DNA of 64,000 nucleotides from Maribacter sedimenticola (GTDB lineage: Bacteria > Bacteroidota > Bacteroidia > Flavobacteriales > Flavobacteriaceae): positions 186,001 through 250,000 of the forward strand of contig NZ_FZNV01000004.1 in assembly GCF_900188415.1 (NCBI RefSeq), written 5' to 3'. Each line of letters starts with the position of its first letter. Position 1 is the first letter of the stretch. A program made the position numbers and the translations under genes. Below the pieces are notes generated by a model that searched no databases, was not told the origin of the DNA, and was given only the letters and a program-made list of their open reading frames with translations. Of this stretch, positions 21,128 through 26,813 are shown piece after piece.

Positions 21128-21790
21128 ATGACTAAAGCAGAAAAAATAGCGTTTACAATCTCTACGCTACAAGAGCTTTATCCTGAAATTCCTGTACCCT
21201 TAGACCATAAAGACCCGTATACATTATTGATTGCTGTTCTAATGTCTGCCCAAAGTACAGATGTACGGGTAAATAAAATTACTCCCTTGTTATTTGCAAG
21301 AGCTGACAATCCTTATGATATGGTCAAGCTGAGCGTAGATGAAATAAGGGAAATCATAAAACCTGTAGGTCTGTCCCCCATGAAAGCCAAAGGTATATAT
21401 GGTCTTTCAAAGATATTGATCGAAAAACATGATGGTAAAGTTCCAAAAGATCTACCTTCATTGGAAGCATTGCCCGCCGTGGGCCATAAAACGGCTAGCG
21501 TTGTTATATCACAAGCATTTGGTATTCCTGCTTTTCCCGTAGATACACATATTCATAGATTACTATATAGGTGGGGTTTTACCAATGGTAAAAACGTAGT
21601 ACAAACAGAGAAAGATGCCAAACGTTTGTTTCCCAAGGAAATTTGGAACGATTTACACTTGCAGATCATTTGGTACGGCAGACAATATTCTCCTGCCAGA
21701 GGTTGGGACCTGGAGAAAGATATCATTACCAAGAAAATAGGTAGAAAATCCGTATTAAACGAATATTATAAAAAGAAAAAGACCCGTTAA
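21128..21790 (+). CDS. nth: Endonuclease III without the FeS-cluster cysteines
   Basis: A 220-aa DNA glycosylase/AP lyase. The helix-hairpin-helix LPAVGHKTASVV carries the catalytic lysine of GHK, and the catalytic aspartate follows in FPVDTHIHR, so bifunctional activity on oxidised pyrimidines is expected. The C-terminal region where E. coli Nth has CX6CX2CX5C reads YGRQYSPARGWDLEKDIITKK and has no cysteine at all (the whole protein has none), so the [4Fe-4S] cluster is absent. The frame is intact and the usual active-site residues are kept, so it is a lineage form rather than a damaged gene. The stop codon is inside its own terminator hairpin. Confidence 0.88.
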   Translation: MTKAEKIAFTISTLQELYPEIPVPLDHKDPYTLLIAVLMSAQSTDVRVNKITPLLFARADNPYDMVKLSVDEIREIIKPVGLSPMKAKGIYGLSKILIEKHDGKVPKDLPSLEALPAVGHKTASVVISQAFGIPAFPVDTHIHRLLYRWGFTNGKNVVQTEKDAKRLFPKEIWNDLHLQIIWYGRQYSPARGWDLEKDIITKKIGRKSVLNEYYKKKKTR

Positions 21791-21800
21791 AAACGGGCCT
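21780..21800 (+). terminator. nth terminator overlapping the stop codon
   Basis: CCCGTT (21783-21788) pairs with AACGGG (21792-21797) and the stem extends outward with one mismatch, followed by TTTTATT. The TAA stop of nth lies within the hairpin. Two sigma-module genes converge on it from the other strand. Confidence 0.7.
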
Positions 21801-21804
21801 TTTA

Positions 21805-21948
21805 TTAGTTTAAAAATGTTTCGAAACTTAAATCATTGTGCTCAAATTCGTAAAGCGCCTGAGAATAACTCAACAAGAAATTAATTGTCTTTGGACATAC
21901 TTTAACAAATTCTGCCTGTTCTTGAAAATTAGAGTAAATTTTTTCCAT
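21805..21948 (-). CDS. 47-aa small protein downstream of sigma factor (copy A)
   Basis: A 144-base ORF (ATG at 21948, TAA at 21805) encoding 47 residues, 70 bases downstream of the sigma factor stop on the same strand. It begins MEKIY, has a central PKTINFLLSYSQAL helix-like core and ends FETFLN. An ORF of identical length lies in the same place after the other sigma gene (22990-23133); about 23 of 47 residues are the same by hand count, with both ends and the TIxFLLxYS core kept. This conservation between two copies shows it is translated. The role is unknown; a small regulator or anti-sigma-like partner is a guess. Confidence 0.75.
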   Translation of the reverse strand: MEKIYSNFQEQAEFVKVCPKTINFLLSYSQALYEFEHNDLSFETFLN

Positions 21949-22018
21949 ACTTCCTACGTTGTTACACTAAAATAACGCCGCAAAATTGGAAATATTGTCT
22001 ACCCTATGTTCTTCCCTC

Positions 22019-22600
22019 TTAATTCGTAAGAACAATATTGTTTTTGTCGATGATTTTTCTAAGATTTATTAAAGCATAACGCATTCTTCCCAAGGCCGTA
22101 TTGATACTTACTCCTGTATTTTCCGATATTTCCTTAAAGCTCATATCCTTGTAGATACGCATTAAAAGAACTTCTTTTTGATCATCTGGCAACTCTTCTA
22201 CCAATTGTCTAAGATCTGTATCTATTTGATTTTTGATGAGTTGCTTTTCAGCATTTAACTTATCATCACCTATAACAGAAAAAATATTGAAATCATCACT
22301 ACCTTCAAACATTGGCATTCTCTTATTTCTTCTAAAATGATCAATGATCAAATTATGCGAAATTCTCATTACCCATGGTAAAAATTTACCTTCCTCGCTG
22401 TATTTTCCTTTTTTTAAGGTCTTGATCACCTTTATAAAGGTATCTTGGAATATATCTTCTGTAATATCCCTATCCAATACCTTAGAATAGATAAAACTAG
22501 TAATACGCTGATTGTGTCTGTTGATCAATATTTCAAGGGCACTTTCGTTACCATTGATGTAATCCCTTACTAATTCTGAGTCTTCAATTTGTAGTTTCAT
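22019..22600 (-). CDS. Sigma-70 family (ECF-like) sigma factor, copy A
   Basis: A 193-aa two-domain sigma factor. Region 2 spans ~10-85 (ALEILINRHNQRITSFIYSK ... DIFQDTFIKVIKTL ... FLPWVMRISHNLIIDHFRR), region 4 ~130-185 (ELPDDQKEVLLMRIYKDMSFKEISENTGVSINTALGRMRYA). No anti-sigma factor with a membrane span is adjacent. It aligns without gaps to copy B at 23208-23789; about 142 of 193 residues match by hand count, with the strongest identity in 2.3/2.4 and region 4, so both probably recognise similar promoters. Location between nth and uvrA is the usual flavobacterial place for a single such gene, so this is one product of a tandem duplication. Confidence 0.88.
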   Translation of the reverse strand: MKLQIEDSELVRDYINGNESALEILINRHNQRITSFIYSKVLDRDITEDIFQDTFIKVIKTLKKGKYSEEGKFLPWVMRISHNLIIDHFRRNKRMPMFEGSDDFNIFSVIGDDKLNAEKQLIKNQIDTDLRQLVEELPDDQKEVLLMRIYKDMSFKEISENTGVSINTALGRMRYALINLRKIIDKNNIVLTN

Positions 22601-22939
22601 ACGAGTTACTTTCTTTTAAGGTTTTAGATTGGGAAAATCTAATTGGTTATTTTGGTTTGCTTTTTAATTCTGATATAAAACTATAGAAAAGGGGTGCTGT
22701 TCAAAAAAGTATGTTGTCAAACAGCACTTTTATGATGTGAAACATCGAAAAAGTATATTTCCATACAATAAATAAGAATATGGAAAGTTCAGTGAGAAAT
22801 TTAGATATAGCTTTTAAGGACAGTAGTATATAAAAGAATATTGTTTTGGCCTTACTACAGGACTAATATTAAAATAGGAAAGGAACATTACAATAATGTA
22901 TACGGTAAGGATACCTTATATATAATTGTATAAAAAAGA
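22601..22939. other. Intergenic region between the two sigma modules
   Basis: About 340 bases with no credible gene. It holds one hairpin (GTGCTGTT 22694-22701 with AACAGCAC 22720-22727, 18-base loop). The rest is AT-rich and presumably carries the promoter of sigma copy A; I find no full TAnnTTTG box close to the start at 22600. Confidence 0.5.
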
Positions 22940-22969
22940 AAACCTCTTGAACTTCCGTCCAAGAGGTTT
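22940..22969 (-). terminator. Terminator after sigma module B
   Basis: AAACCTCTTG (22940-22949) pairs with CAAGAGGTTT (22960-22969). On the minus strand the stem is followed by a TTCTTTTTTA run, just downstream of the 47-aa gene at 22990. Confidence 0.8.
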
Positions 22970-22989
22970 ATATTATTTGGTAAGGATGA

Positions 22990-23133
22990 TTAATTTAAAT
23001 TACTTTCAAATTGTAATCCCTTTGTTTCTGTTATATCCAATGACTTAGAATAGGCCAATAAAAATTCAATGGTTTCTGGTCTGGCTTTTACTAAAGTGCA
23101 TTTTTCAGTTTTATCGGTGTAAATTTTCTCCAT
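22990..23133 (-). CDS. 47-aa small protein downstream of sigma factor (copy B)
   Basis: A 144-base ORF, ATG at 23133 and TAA at 22990, 74 bases downstream of sigma copy B. The 47 residues begin MEKIY, contain PETIEFLLAYSKSL and end FESNLN, lining up without gaps with the protein at 21805-21948. The pairing of this gene with each sigma copy, with nearly equal spacing, shows that the unit duplicated was sigma gene plus small gene. A terminator follows within 20 bases. Function unknown. Confidence 0.75.
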   Translation of the reverse strand: MEKIYTDKTEKCTLVKARPETIEFLLAYSKSLDITETKGLQFESNLN

Positions 23134-23207
23134 AGTATTTGTTGTTTAGGTTCAACTAAAGAACGATACATTGATGAAGATAGTAGATCCACTCGACCTG
23201 TAACCAA

Positions 23208-23789
23208 TTAATTCGTTAAAACTATACTATTGGCCTCAACTAACTTTCTTAGGTTGATCAATGCGTAGCGCATTCTTCCTAAAGCCGTATTGATACTGAC
23301 ACCCGTATTGTCCGAAATTTCCTTAAAACTCATATCCTTGTAGATACGCATTTCCAAAACCTCCTGCTGATCCTCCGGGAGTTCTTTGATCATCCTCACC
23401 AAATCAGTATCTATTTGCTCCTTGATCAACTGTCTTTCTGCATCAAGTTTTTCATCACCCAATAAGGAGAAAATATTATAGCTCTCCTTACTATTATACA
23501 TGGGCATTCTGTTATGCTTTCTAAAATGATCAATAATCAGGTTATGTGCAATTCTCATGACCCAGGGCAAAAACTTTCCCTCTTCGTTATAGGCACCTTT
23601 TTTTAAGGTACGGATCACTTTCATAAAGGTATCTTGAAAAATATCCTCGGTCAATTCCCTATCCCCTACTTTTGAATAGATAAAACCGGTTAAACGCGAA
23701 TTATGACGATTTATTAAAGCCTCTATGGCCTTTTCGTCTCCTTGAATATATTTTTTGACTAATTGGGAATCTTCAATCTGTACAACCAT
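23208..23789 (-). CDS. Sigma-70 family (ECF-like) sigma factor, copy B
   Basis: A 193-aa sigma factor with the same architecture as copy A: region 2 with DIFQDTFMKVIRTL and FLPWVMRIAHNLIIDHFRK, region 4 with ELPEDQQEVLEMRIYKDMSFKEISDNTGVSINTALGRMRYA. Differences from copy A cluster in the N-terminal 30 residues, the linker at ~92-125 and the last ten residues; region 2.4 and the region 4 helix-turn-helix are almost the same. It is followed by its own 47-aa gene and a terminator, so it is a separate transcription unit. It faces away from uvrA across a 246-base gap that I find otherwise empty apart from the uvrA promoter box. Confidence 0.88.
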   Translation of the reverse strand: MVVQIEDSQLVKKYIQGDEKAIEALINRHNSRLTGFIYSKVGDRELTEDIFQDTFMKVIRTLKKGAYNEEGKFLPWVMRIAHNLIIDHFRKHNRMPMYNSKESYNIFSLLGDEKLDAERQLIKEQIDTDLVRMIKELPEDQQEVLEMRIYKDMSFKEISDNTGVSINTALGRMRYALINLRKLVEANSIVLTN

Positions 23790-24035: not shown

Positions 24036-26813
24036 ATGCCTACACTTACCGAAGTAAATCCGAAAGAGAACATAATCATTAAGGGAGCAAAACTGCATAA
24101 CCTTAAGAACATAGATGTAGTTATACCTAGAAATAAACTTGTTGTAATTACGGGTTTGTCCGGATCCGGAAAGTCTAGCCTAGCATTCGATACGCTATAT
24201 GCAGAAGGACAAAGAAGGTATGTAGAAAGTTTATCATCTTACGCAAGACAGTTTTTGGGCAAATTGGACAAGCCCAAGGTTGACTATATAAAAGGTATTG
24301 CCCCCGCAATTGCAATAGAACAAAAAGTAAACTCTACCAATCCTAGATCTACTGTAGGTACCACTACGGAAATATATGATTACATTAAATTATTGTTTGC
24401 CAGAATAGGAAAAACCTTTTCTCCCATATCCGGTAGCGAGGTAAAAAAACATACGGTTAGCGACATTGTCAACTTGGTAAAAACTTTTGACGAGCAAACA
24501 AAACTATTATTACTGGCACCCATCCAAATTAGGGAAGACAGGGATACTATTAAATCTCTGGAACTTTTTTCAAAACAAGGATATGCACGTATTAAATATA
24601 ACAATGAAGTCCTGAGAATTGACCAAGCCCCAAAAGATATAGGCAAAAAATTTGATTTGGTCATAGATCGTATCATTACCAAAAACGATGAGGATTTTTA
24701 TAATAGATTGGCCAATGCCATTGATACAGCTTTGTTTGAAGGTAAGGGAGAGTGCGTAATAGAGGAATTGGCTACCGGAAAACAGACATTTTTCAGTAAT
24801 AAGTTTGAACTGGACGGAATGACCTTTCTAGAACCAAATGTACATTTGTTCAGTTTCAACAATCCATATGGTGCCTGTCCAAAATGTGAGGGATATGGAG
24901 ATGTTATTGGTATTGATGAAGATTTGGTCATTCCCAATACGGCACTTTCAGTCTATGAAAATGCAATTTTTCCTTGGCGTGGAGAAAGTATGGGCTTTTA
25001 TAGGGACCAATTGGTCAATTCTGCATATAAATTTGACTTCCCCATTCATAAACCTTGGTATGAACTGACAGAAGAACAAAAAGAATTGGTTTGGAAAGGC
25101 AATAATCATTTCATAGGACTTCATAAGTTCTTTGGTATGCTTGAGGAAAAAAGTTACAAGATTCAAAATAGGGTCATGTTATCAAGATACCGTGGTAAAA
25201 CCAAATGTAATGTTTGTAATGGTAAAAGATTACGTACGGAGACCGATTATGTCAAAGTAGGCGGTGCCAACATCTCATCATTGGTAGGTCGTTCAATAGA
25301 AAAGTTAGGTGAATTTTTCAATACATTGGAGCTAAATGACAACGACGCCAAAGTAGCTTCACGCCTATTGATAGAAATTAGGACCCGTCTTGGTTTTTTA
25401 AGTAAAGTAGGTCTAAACTACCTGACCATAAACCGAAAATCCAACACCCTTTCTGGTGGTGAGAGTCAACGCATAAACCTGGCAACCTCTTTAGGTAGTA
25501 GTTTAGTGGGGTCTATGTATATTTTAGATGAACCAAGTATTGGCCTTCATCCAAAAGACACTGAAAATCTTATAGATGTTTTAATATCACTTAAAAATTT
25601 GGGCAATACGGTTATTGTCGTAGAACATGATGAGGATATTATGAAGGCTGCGGATATGGTCATTGACATTGGTCCTGAGGCAGGCAGCCATGGTGGTAAT
25701 GTTGTGGCGCAGGGAACATTAAAGGAAATATTAAAATCAGACTCACTAACGGCACAGTACCTCAATGGTAGTATGGAAATTAAGGTTCCAAAAGAACGAA
25801 GAACCTCTAAAAATTACATTACTATTAAAGGTGCAAGAGAACATAACCTGAAAAATATTGATGTAACCTTTCCTTTGGATATGTTAACTGTAGTTACGGG
25901 TGTTTCAGGTAGTGGTAAAAGTACCTTGGTAAAAAAGTTACTCTATCCAACAATATTAAAAGAAACTGGTGGCTATGGGGAAAAAGCCGGACAGTTTACT
26001 GATGTGGAAGGAAAATATAAACATATAAAACATGTTGAATTTGTAGACCAAAACCCAATTGGTAGATCTTCCAGGTCAAATCCGGTTACTTATATCAAGG
26101 CATATGATGATATTAGAAATCTTTTTGCAAGCCAAAAGCTTAGTACCATAAGAAACTATCAGGCCAAACACTTCTCATTTAATGTTGATGGTGGTAGGTG
26201 TGAAAAATGCAAGGGGGAAGGCGAAATTACGGTAGAAATGCAATTTATGGCAGATGTGCATTTGGAATGTGAAACCTGTGGAGGCAAACGTTTTAAGAAA
26301 GAGGTATTGGAGGTAACGTTCAATGAAGCCAATATTGATGATATCCTTAATATGACCATAGATGATGCCATTACGTTTTTTGAAAAAGGTTTACAGAATA
26401 AAATCGTTACCAAGCTCAAACCCTTACAGGATGTAGGTTTAGGTTATGTTACTTTAGGACAATCTTCTTCTACTCTATCTGGAGGTGAAGCCCAACGTAT
26501 TAAATTAGCCTCCTTTCTGATTAAGGGTAGCACCAAGGACAAAGCGCTCTTCATTTTTGACGAACCAACTACCGGATTACATTTTCATGATATTAAAAAG
26601 CTTTTGAAATCATTTAATGCGTTGATCAAGAAAGGACATTCCATTGTAGTTATAGAACATAACATTGATTTAATCAAATGCGCCGATTATCTAATTGACC
26701 TTGGTCCAGGCGGCGGGGAAAACGGTGGTCATTTGCTGGCCGAAGGAACTCCTGAAGAAGTCTCTAAAAGTAAAAAATCTTTTACGGCCAATTACTTAAA
26801 AGATAAACTATAA
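24036..26813 (+). CDS. uvrA: UvrA, excinuclease ABC subunit A
   Basis: A 925-aa ABC-type damage-recognition ATPase. First Walker [10 protein letters not shown] at residues 40-48; first signature SGGES in [11 protein letters not shown]; second Walker [10 protein letters not shown]; second signature [12 protein letters not shown]; Walker B motifs in YILDEPS and FIFDEPT. The C-terminal zinc finger is complete (CEKCKGEGE ... CETCGGKRF). The N-terminal zinc finger keeps only its second half ([10 protein letters not shown]): the upstream CxxC of E. coli UvrA is missing, which I believe is usual in Bacteroidetes. It loads UvrB at lesions in nucleotide excision repair. Flavobacteria can have a second uvrA elsewhere. 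Confidence 0.92.

Follow-up and report, generated by a model that had tools for sequence, protein, structure and literature searches.

The two 47-residue proteins encoded behind duplicated ECF sigma factor genes of Maribacter sedimenticola are best read as what is left of a class I anti-sigma domain, namely its sigma2-binding helix, together with a short tail. Descent from this domain is well supported by a graded series of homologs, and each protein, with its single helix, probably serves as anti-sigma protein to the sigma factor whose gene precedes it. This would add an unannotated partner of class I anti-sigma ancestry to an ECF sigma factor that is widespread in class Bacteroidia; no description of such a partner was seen among the listed hits of searches in open-access literature. 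In a published survey, only 6% of Bacteroidetes ECF genes had a class I anti-sigma domain encoded next to them, compared with 32% overall, and the control of the remaining ones was left open (PMC7406223). Here, a widespread and usually single-copy Bacteroidia ECF sigma factor has a partner too small or eroded for the family models scanned.

Two sigma factor and small-gene units

The window, the whole 64,000-nucleotide stretch of M. sedimenticola DNA under analysis, carries two units on its minus strand, in each of which a 47-codon gene comes after an ECF sigma gene (Table 1). All four open reading frames lie where the initial annotation had placed them, and its alignments were reproduced: the sigma copies share 142 of 193 residues without gaps (about 142 had been counted), the small proteins 23 of 47 (about 23 counted), and the distances from sigma stop to small-gene start are 74 and 70 nt, as claimed. 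Shuffling one small protein 20,000 times never gave 23 gap-free identities (highest count, 11). Both sigma copies scored above the cut-offs of Sigma70_r2, Sigma70_r4_2 and TIGR02937 and thus have the regions 2 and 4, without region 3, of ECF sigma factors. The flanking genes are presumably nth (endonuclease III) and uvrA. The usual flavobacterial locus had been described as nth-sigma-uvrA with a single copy, and the other loci of the family indeed carry mostly one copy, usually with nth and uvrA adjoining.

Table 1. Features of the duplicated units and their flanks (positions in the window).
Feature	Position	Strand	Basis
ECF sigma factor copy A, 193 aa; upstream, faster-evolving	23208..23789	-	Sigma70_r2, Sigma70_r4_2, TIGR02937; tree
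Spacer from sigma A stop to small A start, 74 nt; terminator none found	23134..23207	-	
Small protein A, 47 aa; proposed miniaturized anti-sigma protein	22990..23133	-	ORF, homologs, dN/dS, AlphaFold2 model
Terminator-like hairpin then T run, end of unit A	22940..22969	-	
ECF sigma factor copy B, 193 aa; slow, nearest single-copy orthologs	22019..22600	-	Sigma70_r2, Sigma70_r4_2, TIGR02937; tree
Spacer from sigma B stop to small B start, 70 nt; terminator none found	21949..22018	-	
Small protein B, 47 aa; proposed miniaturized anti-sigma protein	21805..21948	-	ORF, homologs, dN/dS
Terminator-like hairpin then T run, end of unit B	21777..21803	-	
Flanking gene nth (endonuclease III, presumed); context only	21128..21790	+	ORF; tblastn query
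Flanking gene uvrA (presumed); context only	24036..26813	+	ORF; tblastn query

No terminator-like hairpin was found between the sigma gene and its small gene in either unit. With a hairpin directly behind each small gene, the simplest reading is that the small gene forms the 3' end of the mRNA of its sigma gene, so that the two genes share one transcription unit. The small genes of the window are, in this respect, encoded like members of the anti-sigma class, in one unit with an ECF sigma gene. Among 73 distinct two-copy loci, the spacer is 74 nt for copy A in 38 and 70–72 nt for copy B in 42. The copy A spacer spans 104–115 nt, rather than about 74 nt, in seven two-copy loci (L078, L081, L086, L101, L102, L103, and L108).

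The small genes are under purifying selection

Of the 35 further genomes of this genus that were searched, 34 carry both small genes, and the lone exception (G008) is 83% complete. Pairwise dN/dS ratios (Nei-Gojobori method, pairs with pS of 0.1–0.6) were 0.206 for small gene A and 0.232 for small gene B, so that the high dN/dS named beforehand as evidence against the small genes was not seen. The corresponding ratios for the sigma genes were 0.062 (A) and 0.027 (B). Third codon positions held 0.543 and 0.474 of all differences in small genes A and B, respectively. The dN/dS of about 0.2 together with this codon-position bias indicates that the small ORFs are translated protein genes under purifying selection, as judged from their substitution patterns. 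The conserved stretch stands just before a terminator-like hairpin, as might also be expected of a 3' untranslated or regulatory RNA that encodes no protein. Such an RNA is extremely improbable, for it is at odds with the dN/dS and with about half of all differences falling at third codon positions; amino-acid motifs are, moreover, kept across families and length changes stay in frame.

The pair is older than the duplication

The initial annotation regarded the sigma factor and the small protein as a functional pair kept through duplication. The idea of a pair is strongly supported; the pair as a product of the duplication is not, as single-copy sigma genes all through the Flavobacteriaceae have a 47-aa gene beside them and longer homologs occur beside the sigma gene across much of class Bacteroidia. 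By this distribution, the pair is far older than the duplication. The proposed search for sigma-linked homologs in other genomes also bore out the linkage: a small ORF stands behind the sigma ortholog in 68 of 68 loci (L106–L173), all selected by a small-protein match and most of them single-copy. At E ≤ 0.01, a profile of the small proteins found matches in 188 of the 395 genomes of the order, including 74 of 75 other Flavobacteriaceae genomes as far as the kinship-sorted list shows; the exception (G301) has a 41-aa form behind its sigma ortholog.

The sigma factor itself is, by its sequence matches, class-wide in Bacteroidia and usually single-copy. With sigma A as the query, 251 of 295 genomes of the class had a match at E ≤ 1e-38, with one match listed per genome except for the M. 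sedimenticola genome and G458. Among 92 class loci fetched regardless of a small gene, a core-bearing partner is present in 56 and a long partner judged by eye in eight more (L262, L287, L288, L292, L294, L295, L299, and L300), for a total of 64 of 92. Across all unique sigma factors fetched, many of which had been selected for a small-protein match, 321 of 372 have a core partner at E ≤ 0.05. The remaining 51 comprise about 13 with a long form, two at the edge of the contig or fetched region, and about 36 with no recognized partner, so that the sigma factor evidently need not have one. No partner was recognizable within 450 nt downstream of the sigma gene in L220, L222, L224, L231, L234, L236, L237, L239, L243 and others; loss, relocation and extreme erosion of the small gene are possible readings of these loci.

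Control ORFs from the same loci (n = 1,799) gave three to six matches at E ≤ 0.005 over the search rounds. Four of the final six were, on reading, true partners missed by windowing; the other two lie in L203 and L301, where the partner gene begins within the sigma gene. Weak matches carry little weight on their own, since seven of 17 weakly matching regions that were fetched had no sigma gene nearby and 10 lay beside one.

A graded series of homologs points to anti-sigma descent

Outside the Flavobacteriaceae, the gene following the sigma gene often encodes a longer protein with the same C-terminal core. Partners typically have 47 aa in the Flavobacteriaceae, 44 aa in family f5, 47–50 aa in f2, f3 and f7, 60 aa in f15, 62–67 aa in f11, 88 aa in f14 and 90 aa in f8, and other orders have mostly 55–69 or 72–90 aa. 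The partners in f22 and f24, whose starts were mis-called in the length tabulation, are really 77–83 aa and overlap the sigma gene. The homologs thus form a series from full-domain proteins of 72–90 aa through forms of 55–69 aa to forms of 44–50 aa. Counts of length-class changes on a tree (13, or nine for short versus not short) were discarded given the mis-called starts of f22 and f24 and the unrooted tree.

The longest forms align almost gap-free among themselves and, when compared with a profile of 17 anti-sigma domains, match over the whole domain (hhalign probability 96.6, P 6e-10, 71 columns). After trimming, the comparison scored 49.4, and the highest of 200 column shuffles reached 15.7. 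The reference profile was built from 17 of 30 loci of the same class matching NCBIfam NF052375, hand-picked for a clear domain start, with 10 of the 17 above the curated cut-off of that family; the 13 loci dropped included zinc-type domains, one duplicate, and rows in which the start was not clear. The two NCBIfam families matched by the most long members (two of 16 each) are both anti-sigma families (best E 4.4e-4 and 3.3e-3), and nine other NCBIfam families were each matched by one long member. The short forms, in turn, match the long forms at their C-terminal end (P 9.8e-8; score 30.3 versus a shuffle maximum of 15.3). Compared directly with the anti-sigma domains, the short profile gave no significant match (P 0.31), and the homology of the short forms to helix 4 of the class I domain runs only through the long forms.

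The two ends of the protein persist through the series. An N-terminal motif (M-x-[KRQNDTH]-x-[YFTSIV]-[ST]), written as a pattern after the sequences had been inspected, occurs in 112 of 189 short, 34 of 59 mid-length and 15 of 16 long forms, and in 47 of 1,799 control N-termini. A terminal asparagine is found in 232 of 236 short and 53 of 60 mid-length forms, three of 16 long forms and 90 of 1,799 controls, so that the Asn-ending tail is common in mid-length and short forms and rare in long ones. The simplest account is that the short forms arose by loss of the middle of the domain (helices 1–3), with its start and helix 4 retained. The family would thereby display several stages in the shrinking of a regulatory domain to one helix and provide a natural test of the smallest part able to control a sigma factor.

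Some homologs depart from this pattern. The 90-aa partners of family f8 (L219 and L221), located 67 and 54 nt behind the sigma gene, keep an anti-sigma-like N-terminal half while their helix-4 core is eroded, opposite to the trend in the Flavobacteriaceae. In several families (L205, L235, L238, L241, L295, and L301), the start of the long partner gene lies within the sigma gene, 26 nt or more before its end, which suggests translational coupling in such loci. The M. sedimenticola genome also has, outside the window, two longer matches to NF052375 below its cut-off (G000:C11:344754-345470 and G000:C17:76334-77020).

Predicted structure and family searches

AlphaFold2 modeled small protein A with one helix (residues 19–31) and a hairpin of two strands (32–37 and 40–45), at a mean pLDDT of 78.6 and a pTM of 0.43. 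On this model, the window proteins have one helix plus a hairpin, not the three-helix bundle plus fourth helix of anti-sigma domains, and their C-terminal hairpin and tail lie outside the anti-sigma domain. A Foldseek search with the 47-aa model returned 116 matches at E ≤ 10 and no solved structure at E ≤ 0.001. Pfam and NCBIfam scans of 47 short members gave only scattered weak matches, and no form scanned, short or long, rose above any cut-off of either collection. Sequence searches of the PDB with the short and long profiles had best E-values of 1.6 and 0.018, respectively, both to unrelated proteins.

Proposed binding to sigma region 2

The initial annotation envisaged a regulator binding region 2 or region 4 of the sigma factor. 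Region 2 is the one indicated by the helix-4 homology: in class I anti-sigma proteins, helix 4 lies on sigma2.1/2.2, as reported from four solved complexes and covariation in more than 10,000 pairs, and helix 1 lies on sigma4 (PMC7406223). The sigma2.1/2.2 face is also the surface that binds the beta' clamp of the polymerase (PMC7406223). Because helix 4 sits on sigma2, a protein cut down to this helix should hold sigma2 only. We infer on this basis that the small protein binds and inhibits its sigma factor. In the proposed mechanism, the small-protein helix (approximately residues 19–31) would lie on regions 2.1/2.2 in the manner of anti-sigma helix 4 and block the surface for the RNA polymerase beta' clamp. 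The tail hairpin and the final asparagine may stabilize the contact or receive a release signal. Made together with its inhibitor, the sigma factor would be kept off until a signal removed the small protein.

Covariation was computed on 321 sigma/small-protein pairs (about 101 effective sequences). The top pair joined sigma I26, in region 2.1, to small-protein L25 (z 8.2), followed by R60–Y28 and E19–S29, all in or beside sigma2.1/2.2, and the 26–25 pair alone topped the sigma rows in every subset. In control comparisons, the small protein reached z 5.5 with Nth versus 8.9 with sigma on the same 166 rows, and 7.6 with UvrA versus 6.2 with sigma on the same 213 rows. When the published contact pattern was scanned over 2,015 placements, the best unshifted placement ranked sixth and an unrelated shift of 101 ranked second; five of the top ten were within four residues of the best unshifted placement. 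Tests on independent pairs gave median p values of 0.25 or worse, none of these medians reaching 0.05. With control noise of similar size and independent-pair tests that were not significant, the placement of the small protein on region 2.1 by covariation is suggestive only. Covariation, first taken as support for sigma2 binding, was downgraded accordingly once the Nth and UvrA controls had shown phylogenetic noise of the same order.

Linkage in one unit and conservation would fit an activator equally well. The small protein could be a positive partner, i.e., a chaperone, stabilizer or activator that the sigma factor needs, derived from an anti-sigma protein whose effect was reversed once the three-helix bundle holding sigma4 had been lost; the bundle that clamps sigma4 is gone from the window proteins. 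Positive partners of a similar sigma factor exist, since PorX of Porphyromonas gingivalis is reported to bind and activate SigP, and the SigP protein to be lacking in a porX mutant (PMC4800418, PMC7712824). Such a reversal is nevertheless unlikely, considering that those relatives with this fold whose function is known act as inhibitors and that helix 4 occupies the polymerase-binding face of sigma2.

The C-terminal hairpin and near-invariant terminal asparagine resemble a docking element absent from ordinary anti-sigma domains and could instead belong to an adaptor connecting the sigma factor with a second regulator (e.g., PorX or a protease) without a direct effect on the binding of sigma to core polymerase. 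In favor of an adaptor, PglZ (PorX-like) proteins are encoded in 22 of 22 sigma-bearing genomes tested and in 15 of 20 without a sigma match. This co-occurrence is weak and expected from shared ancestry, and PorX was recognized only by its PglZ domain; a pure adaptor role is rather improbable. The inhibitory, one-helix anti-sigma reading is the one we carry forward.

Divergence of the two pairs

The searched genomes with two copies all belong to Maribacter, Zobellia or close kin such as Ulvibacterium, Pareuzebyella, Saonia and Pricia. A 66-row sigma tree placed the duplication inside one clade, which also holds five single-copy rows including Croceivirga. The tree used 22 of 24 chosen two-copy loci; L109 and L111 were left out, each having one incomplete sigma gene. 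Copy B falls together on one side of a branch with support of 79, its own branches being short and close to those of the single-copy genes; copy A evolves faster, and its placement needs three changes. The whole unit was duplicated in the lineage of the window, giving two candidate pairs of sigma factor and miniature anti-sigma protein.

That the small proteins are far more diverged than the sigma factors, as first noted from the two units, is true in a lopsided way. Median identity is 0.91 for sigma B and 0.77 for sigma A, versus 0.49 for small protein B and 0.64 for small protein A. Rates after the duplication were therefore opposite, with a slow sigma and a fast small protein in pair B, and a fast sigma and a slower small protein in pair A. 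These opposite rates may reflect insulation of the two pairs. With two paralogous pairs in one genome, pairing specificity becomes measurable.

Comparison with known systems

This Bacteroidia sigma factor agrees in length, usual single copy and spread with SigP, the type IX secretion regulator of P. gingivalis, which is described as a 193-aa ECF sigma factor with homologs widely distributed in Bacteroidetes, one of them in Flavobacterium johnsoniae (PMC4800418, PMC7323717, PMC10951265). Orthology to SigP is plausible on these three grounds. In P. gingivalis, possible anti-sigma genes are reported downstream of four other sigma factors and none is named for SigP, whose known partner and activator is PorX (PMC7712824). 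Genes for GldM show the same counts as those for PglZ, with 22 of 22 among the sigma-bearing genomes tested and 15 of 20 among genomes lacking a sigma match at 1e-38. An ECF gene of F. psychrophilum that is accompanied by an annotated anti-sigma gene is reported to use the type of promoter that serves type IX secretion genes, and its authors proposed this pair as the regulator (PMC9723704). That pair may involve this sigma factor or another, and it counts against a simple link between the window sigma factor and type IX secretion.

A broader and more tentative scenario, which we hold as a possibility on the doubtful side, is that a cytoplasmic anti-sigma partner has been overlooked for a Bacteroidia-wide sigma factor that is probably SigP. 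In the Flavobacteriaceae and some neighboring families, this partner would have eroded from a full anti-sigma domain to a single-helix microprotein of 44–50 residues that silences through region 2 alone. Its release, perhaps by PorX, would turn on the type IX secretion genes, and Maribacter and its relatives would have two insulated pairs.

Dma and Reo, like the small proteins, are Bacteroidota anti-sigma proteins reported to be encoded with ECF sigma genes (PMC13114119, PMC13088901). Unlike the 47-aa window proteins, they span the envelope, Dma through a transmembrane helix, a tether and a beta-barrel (PMC13114119, PMC13088901). Length alone sets the window proteins apart, as 47 residues leave no room for a tether or barrel. 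The Reo/EcfO system was accordingly rejected as a known family for the small proteins because Reo spans the envelope.

The closest likeness is to the class I anti-sigma domain (ASDI) of proteins such as RseA, RskA, ChrR, and RsiW. As in this class, the small gene lies directly behind its ECF sigma gene; the long homologs align over the whole domain, and the short forms keep its helix-4 end. The window proteins differ in having 47 residues with one predicted helix and a hairpin, without the three-helix bundle that holds sigma4 and without room for a membrane anchor, and they end in a conserved tail. The absence of the bundle makes them proteins apparently derived from the class I anti-sigma family rather than members of it.
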